Shown here one piece after another: positions 28,520-36,116 of a stretch of DNA of 64,000 nt. Source of the DNA: Leptothrix discophora (GTDB lineage: Bacteria; Pseudomonadota; Gammaproteobacteria; Burkholderiales; Burkholderiaceae_C); the NCBI RefSeq assembly GCF_030705305.1, contig NZ_JAUZEE010000001.1:496001-560000 (forward strand), in the 5' to 3' direction. Within the stretch, counting starts at the first letter, position 1. Each line of letters opens with the position of its first letter. The notes below the pieces were generated by a model, which was not told where the DNA came from, searched no databases, and saw only the letters and a list, made by a program, of their open reading frames with translations. Position numbers and translations under genes: made by a program.

Positions 28520-31360
28520 TCAGGTGGTCGCGGAGGCCATGGGCACGATCGCCTTCGTGGCCGCCGTGCCCAGGCTGTGCTGGACCATGGTTCGCAGCCT
28601 GGGCAGGCAACTGCCACATTGCGTGCCGCACTTCAGGCTGGCCTGCAGGCGATCCAGGCGTTCGGCCGGCTCGCGGCAGGCCACCGGCATGGCGAGCAAG
28701 GCATCGCCGATGCGCTGCTCGCTGACGTCCAGGCAGGCGCAGACCTGCGGGCTGCGTGCGGCCATGGCGGTCGGGGCGTTGGGCGTGGCGGCCAGCAGCG
28801 CGCGGCCAATGGACGCGGCATCGCCGTCCTGCTGGAGCAGGTCGAGCATCCAGGTTGCGGCGCGCGTGTCGCCGGCCAGCAGGAAGGACGTCAGCCGGCC
28901 CGCCGCGTCGATGCTCACGGCGCGGTCTTGCCCCGCGTGCCGGTCGGCGTAGCGCAGGGCCTGCGGCGCGTCGAGCCGCAGCAGTGCCTGGGTGCTTGCC
29001 AGCCAGTCGGTCGTGAGCGGCTGGTCCGACGCCACCCGCAGCAGCAGGCCGACGCGGCCCTGCGGCTCGCGCCCGAAGGGCACGCAGCTGGCGTAGGTCA
29101 ACTGGGCCATCAGCGCCTGCAGGCCTTCGCGGGCGTCGACCCATGCGGATTCGGGCAGCCAGGCTGCGCCGACGGCCTGCCAGGGCAGCTCGGCCGGCTC
29201 GATGCGGACGGCGCTGTGCTTGAGCTCCGGCTGGCCCGATGCTGGGCAGCAGGCCGGCTGGGTCAGCGTGTTGACGCCGCCACTGCCGGCGCCGCCCAGC
29301 ACCTCGCTGCCCCAGTGCATGGCCAGGTGGGCCTGGGCATCGCCCGGCTCGTCGCTGGCCTGCACGGGCACGACCAGGCTGCCGCGCCGCGAGCTCACCC
29401 GCACCAGATGGCCGCTCGCGAGGCCCAGCCGGTCGAGATCACGCGGCGCCACCTGCAGGGCGGGTTCGGGCGTGTGCGCCAGCAGGCGGCCCAGCGTGCC
29501 GGTGCGGCTCATGCCGTGCCACTGGTCGCGCAGGCGGCCGCTGGTCAGGGCGAAAGGGAAGTCCGCATCCTGCGACTCGGCCGTGGCGCGCGGTGCCGGT
29601 GCGCTGAAGCGGGCACGGCCGTCGGGGGTCACGAACTGGCCGTCGGCGTAGAGCCGGGCCTTGCCGGTCGACTGGCCTTCCGGGCACGGCCATTGCACCG
29701 GTGCGCGGTCCAGCGCGGCCCAGTCCAGCCCGGTGATGTCGAGGTCGCGGCCGCGGGTCATCTCCCGGTGTTCGAGCCAGACCGATTCGGGCGTCGGGAA
29801 ATCGAACAGGGAGCGGCCGGCGTGTTCGGGCGTGCGCCGCGACGGCAGGCGGGCTTCCAGGCGCTGCGCCACGTCGCGGGCGATGCGCCAGTCGTGGCGG
29901 GCCTCGCCGGGTGCGGCGATGGCCGGGCGCACGCGGCTGATGCGGCGCTCGCTGTTGGTCACGCTGCCTTCCTTCTCGCCCCAGCTGCTGGCCGGCAGGA
30001 GCAGGTCGGCGTAGGGCGTCGTCGCGGTGTGGCGATAGGCTTCCTGCAGCACGACGAACTCGCAGCGTTCGAGCGCGCGGCGCACCAGCGTCTGGTCGGG
30101 CAGCGACTGGGCCGGGTTGGTGCAGGCGATCCACAGCGCACGGATCTCGCCCTCGGCCGCGGCCTCGAACATCTGCACCGCCGCCTTGCCCGGCTTGGCC
30201 GGCACGTCGGTGACGCCCCACAGCCGCGCCACCTCGGCACGGTGCGCGGCGTTGCCGAGGTCGCGGTGCGCACTCAGCAGCGTGGCCATGCCACCGACCT
30301 CGCGTCCGCCCATCGCGTTGGGCTGGCCGGTCAGCGACAGCGGCCCGGCGCCGGGCTGGCCGATCTGGCCGCAGGCCAGGTGCAGGTTGATCAGCGTGGT
30401 GTTCTTGTCGGTGCCGCTGCTGCTCTGGTTGAGGCCCTGGCAATACAGGCTCAGCGTCGGCTGGCGGCGCGTGGACACGCCCGCGGCATCGAGGCCGGCG
30501 AACCAGCGGGCGGCCTGCACCACGTCCGCCTCCGGCACGCCGCAGACCCGTGCGGCATGGGTTGGCGTGATGTCGCGCACGCGGTCGCGCAGCGCGTCGA
30601 AGCCGGTCGTGCGGGCGGCGATCCAGGCGGCGTCGTGCAGGCCTTCGGCCAGCATCACGTGCAGCATCGCGTGGTGCAGCGTGACGTCGCTGCCGGGCTG
30701 GATCGGCAGGTGCAGGTCGGCCACCGCGGCGGTCTCGGTTCGGCGCGGATCGACCACCACCAGCTTCATGTCGGGGTTGGCCGCGCGGGCGTCCTCCAGG
30801 CGGCGGAACAGCACCGGATGGGCCCAGGCCATGTTGCTGCCGGTGATGAAGACGGTGCGGGCGAGCGCCAGGTCCTCGTAGCAGGCAGGCGGCGCATCCG
30901 CCCCCAGGCTGGCCTTGTAGCCGGCCACCGCGCTGCTCATGCACAGGCGCGAGTTGGTGTCGACGTTGTTGGTGCCCAGCAGACCCTTGGCCAGCTTGTT
31001 GAAGACGTGGTAGTCCTCGGTCAGCAGCTGGCCCGAGAGGTAGAAGCCGACCGCGTCCGGGCCGTGGGCCTGGAGGGTCTGCGCGAACCGGTCGGCGACC
31101 TGGTCCAGCGCCGCGTCCCAGCCGATCGGCGCGAGCGGCTGGCCGCGCCCCGCGCGGGCCATCGGCCGGTGCAGGCGTGCAGTCTGCAGCAGCACCGGCG
31201 TGGCCGTCAGGTGCAGCGTGCTGCCCTTGGTGCACAGGCGGCCGAAGTTGGCCGGATGGTCCGGATCGCCGCGCACGCCGGTGATCCGGCCGGCCTCGTG
31301 CTCGATGACGACGCCGCAGCCGACGCCGCAGTAGGGGCAGGTGGAACGGGTCTCGGACAT
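28520..31360 (-). CDS. nasA: Assimilatory nitrate reductase catalytic subunit
   Basis: A 946-aa cytoplasmic molybdoenzyme that reduces nitrate to nitrite for assimilation. The N-terminal [4Fe-4S] site uses Cys 8, 11, 15 and 43 (CPYCGVGCGV). The bis-MGD domains follow, with the active-site Cys in NSRLCMSSAVAGYK and landmarks GSNMAWAHPVLFRRLE and NQSSSGTDKNTTLIN. The last 75 or so residues form a BFD-like [2Fe-2S] domain (VCACLDVSEQRIG ... CGTQCGSCLP), as in Klebsiella NasA. It has no Tat signal, consistent with an assimilatory enzyme. It lies 47 bp before cobA. Confidence 0.95.
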   Translation of the reverse strand: MSETRSTCPYCGVGCGVVIEHEAGRITGVRGDPDHPANFGRLCTKGSTLHLTATPVLLQTARLHRPMARAGRGQPLAPIGWDAALDQVADRFAQTLQAHGPDAVGFYLSGQLLTEDYHVFNKLAKGLLGTNNVDTNSRLCMSSAVAGYKASLGADAPPACYEDLALARTVFITGSNMAWAHPVLFRRLEDARAANPDMKLVVVDPRRTETAAVADLHLPIQPGSDVTLHHAMLHVMLAEGLHDAAWIAARTTGFDALRDRVRDITPTHAARVCGVPEADVVQAARWFAGLDAAGVSTRRQPTLSLYCQGLNQSSSGTDKNTTLINLHLACGQIGQPGAGPLSLTGQPNAMGGREVGGMATLLSAHRDLGNAAHRAEVARLWGVTDVPAKPGKAAVQMFEAAAEGEIRALWIACTNPAQSLPDQTLVRRALERCEFVVLQEAYRHTATTPYADLLLPASSWGEKEGSVTNSERRISRVRPAIAAPGEARHDWRIARDVAQRLEARLPSRRTPEHAGRSLFDFPTPESVWLEHREMTRGRDLDITGLDWAALDRAPVQWPCPEGQSTGKARLYADGQFVTPDGRARFSAPAPRATAESQDADFPFALTSGRLRDQWHGMSRTGTLGRLLAHTPEPALQVAPRDLDRLGLASGHLVRVSSRRGSLVVPVQASDEPGDAQAHLAMHWGSEVLGGAGSGGVNTLTQPACCPASGQPELKHSAVRIEPAELPWQAVGAAWLPESAWVDAREGLQALMAQLTYASCVPFGREPQGRVGLLLRVASDQPLTTDWLASTQALLRLDAPQALRYADRHAGQDRAVSIDAAGRLTSFLLAGDTRAATWMLDLLQQDGDAASIGRALLAATPNAPTAMAARSPQVCACLDVSEQRIGDALLAMPVACREPAERLDRLQASLKCGTQCGSCLPRLRTMVQHSLGTAATKAIVPMASATT

Positions 31361-31410: not shown

Positions 31411-32661
31411 TCAGGCCGCCGCCGGCTCGGCCGCCGCCGCGCCGAACATCAGCGCATGGCGCAGCGCTCGCACGTTGCGGCCTTCGCGGATCAGCTGCAG
31501 ATACCAGGCGCCGTCGGAGGTGTCGCCATACAGGCAGGCGCCGACCAGCTTGTCCTGGTGCAGCACCAGCTTGCGGTAGACGCCGCCGGGCGGGTCGCTC
31601 AGCACGATCTCCTCATGGCCGTCGCCGCCCATGAAGTTGCCGGCCGAGTACAGCGAGATGCCGGTCACCTTGAGCTGCGTGCTGACCTGGCTGCCGGCAT
31701 AGCGGCCGATGCCGAACTCGGCCAGATGGGTCGCGCAGACACGGCCCTGCTCGAACACCGGGGCGACCAGGCCGTAGGCAATGCCCCGATGCGCCGCACA
31801 TTCGCCGACCGCGTAGATGCGCGGGTCGGTCACGCTCTGCAGCGTGTCGGTGACGACGATGCCGCGTTCGCAGCGCAGCCCGGCGGCCTCGGCCAGCGCG
31901 GTGTTCGGGCGGATGCCGGCGGCCATCACGACCAGGTCGGCGGGGATCTCGCGGGCGTCCTGGAAACGCACCGCACGGACCCGGCCCGCGTCGTTGCCGA
32001 GCAGTGCCTCGGTCTGCGCACCCATCTCGAAGCGCAGGCCACGGCTGACCAGCTCGGCCTGCAGCAGCGCGCCGGCCGCGGCGTCGAGCTGGCGGTCCAT
32101 CGGCCAGGCGGCCAGGTGGACCACCGTGACCTGCATGCCACGCAGGCTCAGGCCGTTGGCGGCCTCCAGGCCCAGCACGCCACCGCCGATGACCACCGCA
32201 TGGCGGTGCGTGCGGGCGGTCTCGATCATGGCCTGCGTGTCGGCGATGTCGCGGTAGGAGATCACCCCGTCCAGGTCGCGTCCGGGGATGGGCGGGATGA
32301 AGGGCGTCGAGCCGGTGGCGATCAGCAGCCGGTCATAGGGCGCCTCGGTGCCGTCGTCGGCCACCACCATGCGGCGCACGCGGTCGATGCGCTCGACCTT
32401 GCGGCCCAGGTGCAGGGTGATGCCGTGGCGTTCGTACCAGTCCAGCGGGTTCAGCACGATCTGCTCGATCGTCTGTTCGCCGGCCAGCACCGGGCTGAGC
32501 AGGATGCGGTTGTAGTTCGGGTGCGGCTCGGCGCCGAACACGGTGATGTCGTGCAGGCCGGGCGCGATCTTCAGCAGCTCCTCGATCGTGCGCACGCCGG
32601 CCATGCCGTTGCCGACAAGGACGAGGCGCTGTCGGCGGGCCGGAAGATCGTCGCGCTTCAT
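31411..32661 (-). CDS. nasC: NAD(P)H:FAD reductase subunit of assimilatory nitrate reductase
   Basis: A 416-aa FAD/NAD(P)-binding oxidoreductase. The first Rossmann motif is VLVGNGMAGVRTIEELL and the second is VVIGGGVLGLEAANGL. The sequence matches the N-terminal FAD half of NirB nitrite reductase, but the sirohaem/4Fe-4S half of that roughly 850-aa protein is absent. It is therefore the electron-feeding subunit (NasC type) for the nitrate reductase encoded next, not a nitrite reductase. Its ATG overlaps the ATPase stop (ATGA), so the two are coupled. Confidence 0.87.
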   Translation of the reverse strand: MKRDDLPARRQRLVLVGNGMAGVRTIEELLKIAPGLHDITVFGAEPHPNYNRILLSPVLAGEQTIEQIVLNPLDWYERHGITLHLGRKVERIDRVRRMVVADDGTEAPYDRLLIATGSTPFIPPIPGRDLDGVISYRDIADTQAMIETARTHRHAVVIGGGVLGLEAANGLSLRGMQVTVVHLAAWPMDRQLDAAAGALLQAELVSRGLRFEMGAQTEALLGNDAGRVRAVRFQDAREIPADLVVMAAGIRPNTALAEAAGLRCERGIVVTDTLQSVTDPRIYAVGECAAHRGIAYGLVAPVFEQGRVCATHLAEFGIGRYAGSQVSTQLKVTGISLYSAGNFMGGDGHEEIVLSDPPGGVYRKLVLHQDKLVGACLYGDTSDGAWYLQLIREGRNVRALRHALMFGAAAAEPAAA

Positions 32662-33488
32662 GCCGCGTGCGCCTCGACGTGGACCTGCTTGGCGTACAGG
32701 AACTCCAGCACCGCCTCGCGGGCCTGCAGGTAGCTCGCGTCGTGAGCCATCTCCAGGCGGTTGCGGGCGGCCTCGCGCAGCGGCGGCAGCGGCACGTCCA
32801 GCACCTCGCCGATGGTGGCGGCCGGGCCGTTGGTGAGCATGACGATGCGGTCGGACAGCAGCACCGCCTCGTCGACGTCGTGCGTCACCATCATCACGGT
32901 CGAGCCGGTGGCTGCGACGATCTTCATCAGCTCGTCCTGCAGCTTGGCGCGCGTCAGCGCATCGAGCGCGCCGAAGGGCTCGTCCATCAGCAGCATCTTG
33001 GGCTCCATGGCCAGCGCCCGGGCAATGCCCACCCGCTGCTTCATGCCGCCGGAGATCTCGCCCGGCCGCTTGTCGGCCGCGTGGGTCAGGCCGACCAGGT
33101 TCAGCGCCGCCTTGGCGCGCTCGCGCAGCTGGGCCTTCTTCTCGGTCGCGCCGAAGACGCGCTCGACCGCCAGCAGGACGTTCTCCAGGCAGGTCAGCCA
33201 GGGCAGCAGCGAGTGGTTCTGGAACACCACCGCCCGGTCCGGGCCGGGGCCGCGCAGTTCGCGGCCGTCGAGCAGCAGCACGCCGCTGGTCGGCGTGGTC
33301 AGGCCGGCCACCAGGTTCAGCAGCGTCGACTTGCCACAGCCGGAATGGCCGATCAGCGCGATGAACTCGCCGCGGGCGACGTCGAGGTTGACGTCGCGCA
33401 GCGCCACGAAGGGGCCCTTGCGGGTCGGGAAGGTCATGCCGACCTGGCTGATGCTCAGGAAGCGGCTCTGGTTGGGGATGGCGGTCAT
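32658..33488 (-). CDS. nrtD: Nitrate ABC transporter ATP-binding protein
   Basis: A 276-aa ATPase of the nitrate/sulfonate/taurine importer class. Walker A is GHSGCGKST (47-55), followed by VFQNHSLLPWLTCLENV, the ISGGMKQRVGIARAL signature and LLMDEPFGALDALTR. Length and motifs match NrtD/NasD rather than NrtC, since there is no fused binding domain. It powers nitrate/nitrite uptake together with the permease and binding protein encoded just upstream. Confidence 0.92.
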   Translation of the reverse strand: MTAIPNQSRFLSISQVGMTFPTRKGPFVALRDVNLDVARGEFIALIGHSGCGKSTLLNLVAGLTTPTSGVLLLDGRELRGPGPDRAVVFQNHSLLPWLTCLENVLLAVERVFGATEKKAQLRERAKAALNLVGLTHAADKRPGEISGGMKQRVGIARALAMEPKMLLMDEPFGALDALTRAKLQDELMKIVAATGSTVMMVTHDVDEAVLLSDRIVMLTNGPAATIGEVLDVPLPPLREAARNRLEMAHDASYLQAREAVLEFLYAKQVHVEAHAA

Positions 33489-33513: not shown

Positions 33514-34476
33514 TCAGCGGTACTCGAAGCGGCGGGCGATGGCGATCAGCAGGGCTTCGAGCAGCAGTCCGACGCCGCCGATCACGAAGATCGCGATCAG
33601 GATGTGGGCGACGTTGAGGTTGTTCCACTCGTCCCACAGCCAGAAGCCGATGCCCTGGCCGCCGGTCAGCATCTCGGCGGCGACGATCACCAGCCAGGCG
33701 GTGCCCACGGCCAGCCGCACGCCGGTCAGCATGTAGGGCAGCACGGCGGGGAACAGGATCTTGCGCATCACCGTCCACTCGCTGAGGTTGAGCACGCGGG
33801 CGACGTTGAGGTAGTCCTGCGGCACCTGCCGCACCCCGACCGCCGTGTTGATCACCATCGGCCAGATCGAGCAGATGAAGATGGTCCAGATGGCGGCCGG
33901 GTTGGCGGCCTTGAACACCATCAGGCCGATCGGCAGCCAGGCCAGCGGCGAGACCGGGCGCAGCAGGCTGATGATCGGATCGAGCATCTGGTTGAGGAAG
34001 CTGAAGCGGCCGATCGCGAAGCCCAGCGGGATGCCCACCAGCGCGGCCAGGCCGAAGCCCAGGGCGACACGCTGCAGCGAGGACAGCACGTTCCAGCCGA
34101 TGCCCTGGTCGTTCGGACCCTTGACGTAGAAGGGGTCGGCGAACAGCTTCACGGCGGCATCCCAGACCGGCAGCGGCCCGGGCAGCTGCTTGTCGCCCGT
34201 CTGGGCCACGAGTTGCCACACCAGCAGCATCAGCAGCAGGCCCAGCAGCGGCGCGACGAAGCGCGACAGCAGCATGCGGCGCTGGGCCCGCAGCAGGGCG
34301 GCGGTCTGCTCGCGGGCGACGGTGTCGCCCTGGGCATGGGCCACCGCCTCGGCCAGGTCGGCCGCAGCCGGATGGGCTGCAACGACGGGCTGCGGCGCGA
34401 GCACCACGGGGGCGCTGTCGTGGACCGTCGCGACGGTCGGCGTGAGGCCCGACAGGGCCAGCGTGGATGCGCTCAT
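33514..34476 (-). CDS. nrtB: Nitrate ABC transporter permease
   Basis: A 320-aa inner-membrane permease with a cytoplasmic N-terminal extension of about 70 residues, a first helix around LLGLLLMLLVWQLVA, and the BPD-type MetI core. The EAA-like segment ARVLNLSEWTVMRKILFPAVLPYMLTGVRLAVG and the C-terminal GIGFWLWDEWNNLNVAHILIAIFVIG are characteristic of NrtB. It lies 45 bp after the binding-protein gene and 25 bp before the ATPase gene. Confidence 0.92.
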   Translation of the reverse strand: MSASTLALSGLTPTVATVHDSAPVVLAPQPVVAAHPAAADLAEAVAHAQGDTVAREQTAALLRAQRRMLLSRFVAPLLGLLLMLLVWQLVAQTGDKQLPGPLPVWDAAVKLFADPFYVKGPNDQGIGWNVLSSLQRVALGFGLAALVGIPLGFAIGRFSFLNQMLDPIISLLRPVSPLAWLPIGLMVFKAANPAAIWTIFICSIWPMVINTAVGVRQVPQDYLNVARVLNLSEWTVMRKILFPAVLPYMLTGVRLAVGTAWLVIVAAEMLTGGQGIGFWLWDEWNNLNVAHILIAIFVIGGVGLLLEALLIAIARRFEYR

Positions 34477-34521: not shown

Positions 34522-35757
34522 TCAGGCGGCCTTGATCTTGAAGCTGCCGGCGTACTTGGCCGGGTCCTTGCCGTCCCAGGTGACGCCGTCGATCATCTTG
34601 CTGCTGCGCATGTCGCTTTTTGGCAGGTTGATCTTCAGCTGGGTGGCCGCTTCCTTGTAGATCGCCGTCTGGTTGATCGCCTTGGCCACGCCCAGGTAGT
34701 CGACGTCGGTCTTGAGCAGGCCCCAGCGGCGGTGCTGGGTCAGGAACCACATGCCGTCCGACAGGTAGGGGTAGTTGACCGCGCCGTCGTTGAAGAACTT
34801 CATGTGGTTCGGGTCGTCCCAGGTCTTGCCCAGGCCGTTCTGGTAGCGGCCCAGGATGCGCTGGTTGATCACGTCCACGGTGGTGTTGACGAAGGACTTC
34901 TCGGCGATCGCCTCGGCCATCTTCATCTTGTTCTGCAGGCCGGTGTCGATCCAGCGGCCGGCCTCCAGGATGGCCATGACCATCGCACGGGCGGTGTTCG
35001 GGTTCTTCTGGACGAATTCGGCGGTGGTGCCGAGCACCTTCTCGGGGTGGTCGCGCCAGATGTCCTGGGTCGTCACGGCGGTGATGCCGATGCCGTCGGC
35101 GATGGCCCGGTGGTTCCAGGGCTCGCCCACGCAGTAGCCGTCCATGTTGCCCACGCGCATGTTGGCGACCATCTGCGGCGGCGGCACGGTGATGACCTTG
35201 GCGTCCTGCATCGGGTTGATGCCGTGGGCGGCCATCCAGTAGTACAGCCACATCGCGTGGGTGCCGGTCGGGAAGGTCTGCGCGAAGGTGTACTCGCGCG
35301 GCTCGGCCTTCATCACCTTGGCCAGGCCCGCGCCGTCGACCGCGCCCTTGTCGGCCAGCTTCTTCGACAGCGTGATCGCCTGGCCGTTGTGGTTCAGGGT
35401 CATCAGCACTGCCATGTCCTTTTTCGGTCCGCCGATGCCCAGGTGAACACCGTAGACGAGGCCGTAGAGCACATGCGCGGCATCCAGTTCGCCGTTGACG
35501 AGCTTGTCACGCACGGCGGCCCAGGACGACTCCTTGCTCGGGATGATCTTGATGCCGTACTTCTCGTCGAACTTCATCAGCGAGGCCATCACCACCGAGG
35601 CGCAATCGGTCAGCGGGATGAAGCCGATGCGGACTTCCTTCTTCTCGGGTGCGTCGGAACCTGCCGCCCAGGCGCCGGCCGAAAGGGCCGAGCCTGCTGC
35701 CACGGAAGCGGTGACCGCCGCCGTTTCCTTGATGAACTGCCTGCGGCCTTCGTTCAT
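34522..35757 (-). CDS. nrtA: Nitrate-binding periplasmic protein
   Basis: A 411-aa substrate-binding protein of the NrtA/CmpA family. The ATG at 35757 puts a Tat-type signal at the very start (MNEGRRQFIKETAAVTASVAAGSALSAGAWAAG); an ATG seven codons upstream (35778) has a stronger Shine-Dalgarno (GGAG) and cannot be excluded. The mature protein shows IGFIPLTDCASVVMAS, GNMDGYCVGEPWNHRAI and the TQDIWRDHPEKVLGTTAEFV stretch that line the nitrate site in this family. It is first in nrtA-nrtB-nrtD-nasC-nasA-cobA, behind a sigma-54 promoter and an attenuator leader. Confidence 0.93.
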   Translation of the reverse strand: MNEGRRQFIKETAAVTASVAAGSALSAGAWAAGSDAPEKKEVRIGFIPLTDCASVVMASLMKFDEKYGIKIIPSKESSWAAVRDKLVNGELDAAHVLYGLVYGVHLGIGGPKKDMAVLMTLNHNGQAITLSKKLADKGAVDGAGLAKVMKAEPREYTFAQTFPTGTHAMWLYYWMAAHGINPMQDAKVITVPPPQMVANMRVGNMDGYCVGEPWNHRAIADGIGITAVTTQDIWRDHPEKVLGTTAEFVQKNPNTARAMVMAILEAGRWIDTGLQNKMKMAEAIAEKSFVNTTVDVINQRILGRYQNGLGKTWDDPNHMKFFNDGAVNYPYLSDGMWFLTQHRRWGLLKTDVDYLGVAKAINQTAIYKEAATQLKINLPKSDMRSSKMIDGVTWDGKDPAKYAGSFKIKAA

Positions 35758-35802
35758 GGTTGCCTCACGCTTGAACATGTTCCATCTCCGATCAATGCCT
35801 GG

Positions 35803-35867
35803 AAAAACGAAAGGCGTCGCGACCTCGGACCGCCGCTGGAAGCGGGAGTCGCCGGTCGGACGCCTTT
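35803..35867 (-). terminator. Attenuator (intrinsic terminator) in the nrtA leader
   Basis: On the minus strand AAAGGCGTC (35867-35859) pairs with GACGCCTTT (35818-35810), extended inwards by CGACC with GGTCG, and is followed by CGTTTTT (35809-35803). It stops 25 bp short of the first possible nrtA start, so it must be bypassed for the operon to be expressed. Its 5' arm is the loop and 3' arm of the second ANTAR hairpin, making the two structures mutually exclusive. Confidence 0.8.
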
Positions 35868-35873
35868 GCCCGA
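35856..35873 (-). promoter_or_regulatory. ANTAR-type antiterminator hairpin P2
   Basis: The minus-strand RNA TCGGGC-[AAAGGC]-GTCCGA forms a 6-bp stem (one G-U pair) with a hexaloop having A at position 1 and G at position 4, the determinants recognised by ANTAR proteins such as NasR/NasT and EutV. Its 3' half overlaps the terminator stem. Confidence 0.75.
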
Positions 35874-35886
35874 TGCCTGTTGCCTT

Positions 35887-35904
35887 CGATGCGCCATTGC
35901 ACCG
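35887..35904 (-). promoter_or_regulatory. ANTAR-type antiterminator hairpin P1
   Basis: The minus-strand RNA CGGTGC-[AATGGC]-GCATCG forms a 6-bp stem (one G-U pair) with a hexaloop having A1 and G4. The loop differs from that of P2 by one base. It would begin about 8 nucleotides from the predicted 5' end of the transcript and is 13 nucleotides before P2. Confidence 0.75.
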
Positions 35905-35921
35905 GGGCCTGATGCAGTCAT

Positions 35922-35937
35922 TGCAGGAGCCGTGCCA
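35922..35937 (-). promoter_or_regulatory. Sigma-54 promoter of the nitrate operon
   Basis: The minus strand reads TGGCACGGCTCCTGCA: GG and GC separated by exactly 10 bp, and 13 of 16 positions near the TGGCACG-N4-TTGCA consensus. Transcription would start near 35911. Sigma-54 control implies activation by NtrC under nitrogen limitation. Confidence 0.75.
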
Positions 35938-36099: not shown

Positions 36100-36116
36100 T
36101 GCACCAGTCCGGCGCG
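36100..36116. promoter_or_regulatory. Candidate NtrC enhancer site
   Basis: TGCACC-AGTCC-GGCGCG matches the NtrC consensus TGCACC-N5-GGTGCA perfectly in the left half and at 4 of 6 bases in the right. It lies about 190 bp upstream of the predicted start. Further GGTGC/GCACC half-sites occur from 36061 to 36138. Confidence 0.4.

Follow-up and report, generated by a model that had tools for sequence, protein, structure and literature searches.

The stretch of DNA analysed here, the window, comprises 64,000 nucleotides of the Leptothrix discophora genome (G000; C11:496001-560000), a genome whose completeness was put at 100% by tool. On its minus strand lie genes for a nitrate-binding protein, permease and ATPase (nrtA, nrtB, nrtC/D), followed by a gene for a reductase that resembles the N-terminal part of NirB and a gene for a probable assimilatory nitrate reductase (Table 1). 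NCBIfam formate dehydrogenase and NasA/NasC models match the putative nitrate reductase, all below cut-off. Upstream of nrtA we identified a leader with a sigma-54 promoter motif, two hairpins (P1 and P2) and an intrinsic terminator.

Table 1. Features of the nrt locus in the window and of the related leader on contig C3
Feature	Position	Strand	Basis
Five tandem 11-nt units CTCCCTCTGGA / TTTCTTCTGGA / TTTCTTCTGGG / CTCCCTCTGAA / CTCCCTCTGAA	35979..36033	minus	read from sequence
Best NtrC-like site, 10/12 specified letters of TGCACC-N5-GGTGCA	36100..36116	minus	weak for this single site
Sigma-54 (-24/-12) promoter motif TGGCACGGCTCCTGCA, GG-N10-GC	35922..35937	minus	read from sequence
P1 hairpin CGGTGC(AATGGC)GCATCG, 6 pairs	35887..35904	minus	hairpin search, fold; covariation in relatives
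P2 hairpin TCGGGC(AAAGGC)GTCCGA, 6 pairs, overlaps terminator	35856..35873	minus	hairpin search, fold
Intrinsic terminator, U5 at 35807-35803	35803..35867	minus	predicted folds
nrtA, nitrate-binding protein (NMT1_2), ATG at 35778 or 35757	34522..35778	minus	domain match
nrtB, permease	33514..34476	minus	domain match
nrtC/D, ATPase	32658..33488	minus	domain match
FAD/NAD(P) reductase, resembles NirB N-terminal part	31411..32661	minus	below NCBIfam cut-off
Probable assimilatory nitrate reductase, molybdopterin enzyme with BFD [2Fe-2S] domain	28520..31360	minus	domain match
Orphan leader: sigma-54 motif TGGCACGCGACGTGCA, long P1 stem, linker CTAGGTGGGACATTTT, P2 GGAC(AACGGC)GTCC, terminator U6	C3:24485-24627		

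The original prediction had described a sigma-54 motif with GG-N10-GC spacing, two 6-bp hairpins with A1 and G4 in both hexaloops, and a terminator whose 5' arm is the loop and 3' arm of P2, and had likened the whole to the nasF architecture. Each of these elements was located: the motif reads TGGCACGGCTCCTGCA at 35937-35922, the hairpins with loops AATGGC and AAAGGC occupy 35904-35887 and 35873-35856, and the terminator stem spans 35867, where the P2 loop begins, to 35810, with CGTTTTT directly behind it at 35809-35803. Both hairpins have one G-U among their six pairs and a C:G closing pair. The likeness to nasF holds in the two A1/G4 hairpins, the overlap of P2 with the terminator and predicted folds in which P2 and the terminator are mutually exclusive. 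When the 443-nt leader was dinucleotide-shuffled 1000 times, a pair of A1/G4 hairpins with 6-bp stems within 60 nt never arose, and one with 5-bp stems arose twice. Across both strands of the window the leader is the one such pair at 6 bp (2 pairs at 5 bp), and TGGCAY-N6-TGC has a single occurrence. A simple terminator scan of the window did not list the leader terminator, probably because it allows short loops only, and Rfam at gathering thresholds gave no match anywhere in the window.

With the transcription start placed at 35911 from the promoter motif, the nascent RNA up to just before the 3' arm of the terminator is predicted to fold into P1 and P2. The full leader has a minimum free energy of -54.6 kcal/mol with the terminator formed, as against -40.2 kcal/mol when P1 and P2 are imposed. 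As the terminator fold is 14 kcal/mol better once its 3' arm is available, termination is by prediction the default and the hairpins need help. The 109-nt leader was more stable than all 200 shuffles (z -3.6). The fold originally proposed, 35911 to 35758 (154 nt), reaches into the gene and stood out less (z -2.0, with 6 of 200 shuffles equally good).

We compared the leader with those of relatives using the best 80 of 590 NrtA loci, 79 of them readable; the remaining one, L021, is truncated where the gene begins. Of the 79, 78 have the sigma-54 pattern, as compared to 16 of 790 shuffles. The best NtrC-like site in the window lies 179 nt before the promoter motif. Over 78 promoters (the window and 77 loci drawn from the best 80 of 590 NrtA matches), NtrC-like half-sites number 2.27 per promoter in the 220 nt upstream of the motif versus 0.87 in shuffles, and a palindrome score of at least 10 was reached by 23 of the 78 promoters versus 44 of 1560 shuffles. 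These counts suggest, statistically, an NtrC site upstream of the promoter.

The tandem 11-nt units in front of the nrtA promoter are a possible activator site. Units of the form CTCCCTCTGNN stand upstream of sigma-54 motifs at two places in the genome, five at nrtA and two at nirB (G000:C27:80336-80355), and the exact two-unit core occurs at these two positions and in none of the 398 other family genomes. Once two mismatches are tolerated, a backward control pattern likewise hits the genome twice. We rejected the repeats as a conserved activator site, given their absence from all 398 other genomes and from nirB of the sister genome G481, and regard them as an oddity of the species.

P1, P2 and the terminator together were detected in the window and in 40 of the best 80 of 590 loci (0 of 1620 shuffles), and P2 with the terminator alone in 17 of the 80 (16 of 1620 shuffles), while neither class was found in 23 of the 80. 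These class counts are approximate, since the detector is crude: L006, L023, L037 and L075 were classed as hairpin-less yet show hairpins, and some positives have odd P2s. When P1 was chosen by its loop letters alone, AANGGCG was found upstream of P2 in 39 of the 50 loci with a P2 motif (from the best 80 of 590). Twenty-seven of these 39 form 5/5 pairs, 10 form 4 and 2 form 3, whereas of 16926 positions picked at random from these regions, 202 form 5/5 pairs. In an alignment of P1 and P2 from 23 of the 41 loci with a complete leader, all 9 pairs form in every row, 6 pairs have changed on both sides, and the covariation score is 0.617, as compared to 0.197 in shuffles, none of which (0 of 500) scored as high; the 18 omitted rows have mostly long, short or odd linkers and the included ones were preselected for pairing. 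The loop-letter test is the fairer of the two because the rows of the covariation alignment were chosen for pairing. The structure is thus kept in orthologous leaders through compensatory changes.

Absence of an ANTAR gene goes along with absence of the hairpins. Among the 79 genomes (best 80 of 590 loci, with L021 left out), five have no ANTAR match (L011, L019, L028, L032 and L036). All five fall among the 22 hairpin-less loci and none among the 57 with hairpins (Fisher p 0.0012, kinship ignored); many of the genomes are MAGs, whose sequence may have gaps. The genomes of the remaining 17 hairpin-less loci do have an ANTAR gene. L019 has one A1/G4 hairpin without P2, and a U-run is kept in both L011 and L019, remnants that look like a decayed leader. 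In Piscinibacter aquaticus (G439), an ANTAR match spread over two frames lies just upstream of nrtA (L044 ~2526-2690) and hairpins were undetected.

No ANTAR gene had been seen in the window, and the partner protein had been predicted to lie elsewhere in the genome. A genome search for ANTAR proteins bore this out, with a gene of the NasR type on a separate contig, C27. The genome has two ANTAR matches. One is this NIT-ANTAR protein of 465 aa (NIT, E 3.5e-42; ANTAR, E 4.7e-21), which matches the K. oxytoca NasR structure 4akk (E 6.2e-40); the other, a response regulator, matches ANTAR only in part. The NIT-ANTAR gene directly follows two ORFs that we named nirB and nirD from their translations, not by family scan. 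The sister genome G481 likewise has one NIT-ANTAR and one weak ANTAR match. We infer that the C27 NasR, although unlinked, is the partner of the window leader.

The nirB gene itself has a leader (L085 1540-1640 / L003; L146 for G481) with a sigma-54-like motif AGGCACGCGCCTTGCG and two hexaloop hairpins, the loops being ATCGCA and GATGAC (AATGAC in G481); a clear U-run terminator was not found in it. The nirBD-nasR genes may be autoregulated.

From these observations the element is very probably a nitrate-responsive ANTAR-type transcription-attenuation leader before nrtABC, the NirB-like reductase and the probable nitrate reductase. Under nitrogen limitation, NtrC would activate the sigma-54 promoter. 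When nitrate is absent the RNA would fold into the terminator and transcription would end near 35803. Nitrate or nitrite, sensed by the NIT domain of the C27 NasR, would free its ANTAR domain; the freed NasR would then bind both loops, hold P1 and P2, and block the terminator, so that the operon is transcribed.

We considered whether the leader might instead answer to a protein of the NasS-NasT type or another ANTAR protein. Relatives offer some precedent, with NasT-size ANTAR genes inside fetched nrtA loci (for example L010/G405, L025/G420 and L047/G442) and, within the genus, a REC-ANTAR gene directly upstream of nrtA in G480. The genome itself, however, has NasR and a partial ANTAR match, and G481 a NIT-ANTAR protein and a weak match. 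A NasS could hide among the seven proteins of the genome that match NMT1_2, yet a NasT would have to go with it. This reading is very unlikely here. A constitutive terminator or attenuator that works without a protein partner would agree with the great stability of the terminator and with the leaders of some relatives, in which an A1/G4 hairpin pair went undetected. We consider it extremely unlikely, as the loop letters are kept while the P1 stems change by compensation and the absence of an ANTAR gene coincides with absence of the hairpins.

Conservation of A1/G4 in close relatives, which the original prediction had expected, was found in part. In the nearest relative, G481 (NrtA 93% identical), the hairpins read CGGTGC(AATGGC)GTACCG and TCGGAC(AAAGGC)GTCCGA, with A1/G4 in both loops. 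Across the genus both loops are of this kind in just 5 of 13 nrtA leaders (the window's own, G481, G248, G170 and G479), a count that omits the second nrtA copy of G170. Seven have A1/G4 in P2 only (G058, G482, G483, G484, G485, G373 and G315) and one, G480, in P1 only, so that one loop is without A1 in 8 of 13. The second nrtA-like copy in G170 (L126, G170:C8) has its own leader containing GGACAACGGCGTCC.

The seven P2-only leaders are of another type, with a common linker CTAGGTGGGACA. Six of them have a mutase gene upstream and therefore occupy another chromosomal site, and in their genomes the strong ANTAR match is a protein different from NasR. We read the loss of A1/G4 in P1 of these seven as diversity within the genus, not as a refutation of the window leader. 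In a search with model R2 of 200 family genomes, leaders of this genus type gave strong matches in the 3 genus members sampled, and a further 9 matches were weak.

The ANTAR proteins of the genus are diverse as well. An NIT-ANTAR protein is present in the window's genome, G481 and G248. In all nine genomes with nrtA behind a genus-type leader (9/9), the strong ANTAR match has the ANTAR domain in mid-protein and no NIT signature. The one such protein that was scanned (L134:1030-2385, G058) has Pfam ANTAR, a C-terminal PilJ domain and a weak receiver-like N-part; proteins with ANTAR in the middle are also found in the eight other nrt-linked genus genomes and in G480, where such a protein comes second to the REC-ANTAR one. 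The PilJ domain is said, by the title of a cited paper, to bind nitrate in McpN. ANTAR-PilJ may be an ANTAR architecture that senses nitrate and is distinct from those of NasR and NasT, and no description of such a protein was found in the literature on ANTAR, PilJ and nitrate, as far as the accessible parts of those papers go.

A model of the leader was also compared with the genome to which the window belongs. The best match was the nrtA leader (E 1.5e-8), itself one of the 23 model rows. The second, C11:764942 (E 0.004), lies in a repeat-rich coding-like region, has broken P2 pairs, and was set aside as chance. The third, with an E value of 0.2, is a complete leader on contig C3 (L102 1470-1612; also L112 and L113), and the 181-nt stretch around it folds with a z of -5.25. 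No nrt gene lies behind this orphan leader; the next genes are a gene for a hypothetical protein (hyp), which has no Pfam or NCBIfam match, and then coaX. Both coaX and the mutase gene at this site were named from translations.

By DNA search the genus-type leader is present in 13 of 13 genus genomes, and in four of these (the window's own, G481, G480 and G248) it lies away from nrtA. All four orphans have a divergent methylmalonyl-CoA-mutase-like gene on one side and hyp-coaX on the other. The linked relatives that were fetched, four in number (G058, G479, G315 and G482), share the gene order mutase, leader, nrtA, nrtC, coaX, with nrtB inferred from spacing and a hyp motif before coaX in 2 of 4. 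The orphan therefore stands where the nrt genes stand in these relatives. In a tree of mutase N-termini (9 of 13 rows, four having been dropped for lack of a usable frame), the orphan clades G000+G481 and G480+G248 are apart from five linked genomes (support 89/88 for these five); the tree is midpoint rooted only and does not fix the ancestral state.

Between the two orphan clades, parts of the leader are better kept than the surroundings. For G000 versus G480, identity is 0.93 over the linker and P2, 0.86 over the terminator 3' arm and U-run and 0.81 over the sigma-54 stretch, as compared to 0.51 and 0.36 in the 5' and 3' flanks, 0.52 over the P1 stretch and 0.44 in the terminator loop. Within the two sister pairs identity is 0.95 and 0.86 over the linker and P2, 0.91 and 0.86 over the terminator arm, and 0.64 and 0.41 in the 5' flanks. 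G000 and G481 share 0.80 of the 3' flank and 0.69 of the sigma-54 stretch; all four orphans retain the TGGCACG and TGC of that stretch.

P1 is paired in 13 of 13 genus-type leaders, those of the orphans among them, and 2 of its 12 pairs have changed on both sides. That number of double-changed pairs is common in shuffles (362/500), but none of the 500 reached the observed percentage paired, count of double-changed cells or covariation score. The orphan P1 hexaloops, CTCACG and GGTCCT, have lost A1/G4 (the folding program gives a tetraloop in 3 of 4), P2 is canonical, and in 4 of 4 orphans the P2 loop and 3' arm serve as the 5' arm of the terminator. For G000 and G481 the folding prediction gives P1 and P2 in the nascent RNA, for G480 and G248 a different fold. 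These features argue for a retained function of the orphan leader, which could act as a regulatory RNA or be a relic in decay. It would belong to the same class as the nrtA leader, the nrt genes behind it lost or never present.

That the orphan is a not-yet-decayed relic of a departed nrt module is plausible, though short of probable. It would fit the common site in the 4 of 4 linked relatives fetched, the lack of A1/G4 in every orphan P1 loop, and the sigma-54 stretch of G000 and G481, kept no better (0.69) than its flanks (0.64 and 0.80). Against a relic speak its persistence in two lineages, the conservation of the sigma-54 stretch, the linker with P2 and the terminator 3' arm over the flanks between G000 and G480, and a P1 that stays paired through base changes. 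Tentatively, the orphan could be a stand-alone small RNA of ~120 nt, driven by nitrogen starvation, that monitors the state of an ANTAR protein: it would compete for NasR or end in two nitrate-dependent forms (short without nitrate, extended with it) and so tune nitrate assimilation in trans. It would have persisted after nrtABC were lost in two lineages, or have been in place before they arrived in a third.

Read-through from the orphan leader might also make hyp and coaX responsive to nitrate and nitrogen. Both genes lie behind the leader in all four orphans, and coaX follows nrtC in the 4 of 4 linked relatives fetched (the hyp motif in 2 of 4). We regard this as rather unlikely, with ~165-200 nt between terminator and hyp, a hyp protein that neither Pfam nor NCBIfam recognises, and a coaX that is not known to us to be connected with nitrate. 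When the orphan linker was paired with the starts of nrtA, nirB, nasR, hyp and coaX, coaX alone stood out (7.7% of the background was as stable); this pairing was rejected because the seven other genomes examined lack the complementary stretch.

NasR acting on the nasF leader is the founding nitrate case. NalA, a second example, is reportedly treated in the studies Romeo 2012 and Nie 2024. The window leader is of this known nasF/NalA kind. As far as the accessible parts of the two sources describe it, the nasF leader of Klebsiella oxytoca likewise has two A1/G4 hexaloop hairpins, C:G closing pairs and a P2 that overlaps the terminator (PMC7496416, PMC3369931). In vitro, K. oxytoca NasR selects the same closing C:G pairs and A1/G4 letters as are seen here (PMC7496416), and the dual hairpin matches that described for EutV, AmiR and NasR (PMC3369931). 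Both systems also have an NIT-ANTAR protein and a nitrate assimilation operon; to judge from the same parts, they differ in that here nasR is away from the operon, beside nirBD on another contig, and the operon begins with nrtABC and has a separate NirB-like FAD subunit.

NalA, the nirBD leader of Pseudomonas, is in the accessible part of its source an antitermination leader for nitrate assimilation that is fed by a sigma-54/NtrC promoter (PMC12830290), as the window leader would be. NalA answers to NasT with NasS (PMC12830290), whereas the full ANTAR partner found here is NasR. The EutX/Rli55 decoy RNA is an ANTAR-type RNA site without a regulated gene (PMC5821096), and the C3 orphan, with no nrt gene behind it, may be likewise. 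According to the part of that source available to us, the EutX site lies behind a riboswitch and has no terminator associated with it (PMC5821096), whereas the orphan P2 overlaps its own terminator, its P1 loop is without A1/G4 and its promoter motif is of the sigma-54 type. Because the EutX site is terminator-free and that of the orphan is not, we did not class the orphan with EutX.

An orphan twin and a change of ANTAR protein within one genus were not found in the open-access literature, judged mostly by listings. Nothing on such an RNA appeared, by title and start of abstract, in the literature on ANTAR, sRNA, sponge and nitrate, and no work on such a circuit was found, by title and abstract, in that on the Sphaerotilus group. 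The nrtA leader provides a complete, testable sigma-54 and NasR circuit in the Sphaerotilus group, with the likely partner protein named. Its orphan twin is a natural experiment, in which a persisting gene-less leader would be either a new trans-acting RNA or a measure of how slowly such a switch decays. The genus appears to swap ANTAR proteins (NasR, NasT and ANTAR-PilJ) around related leaders, which would let the rules of specificity be worked out.
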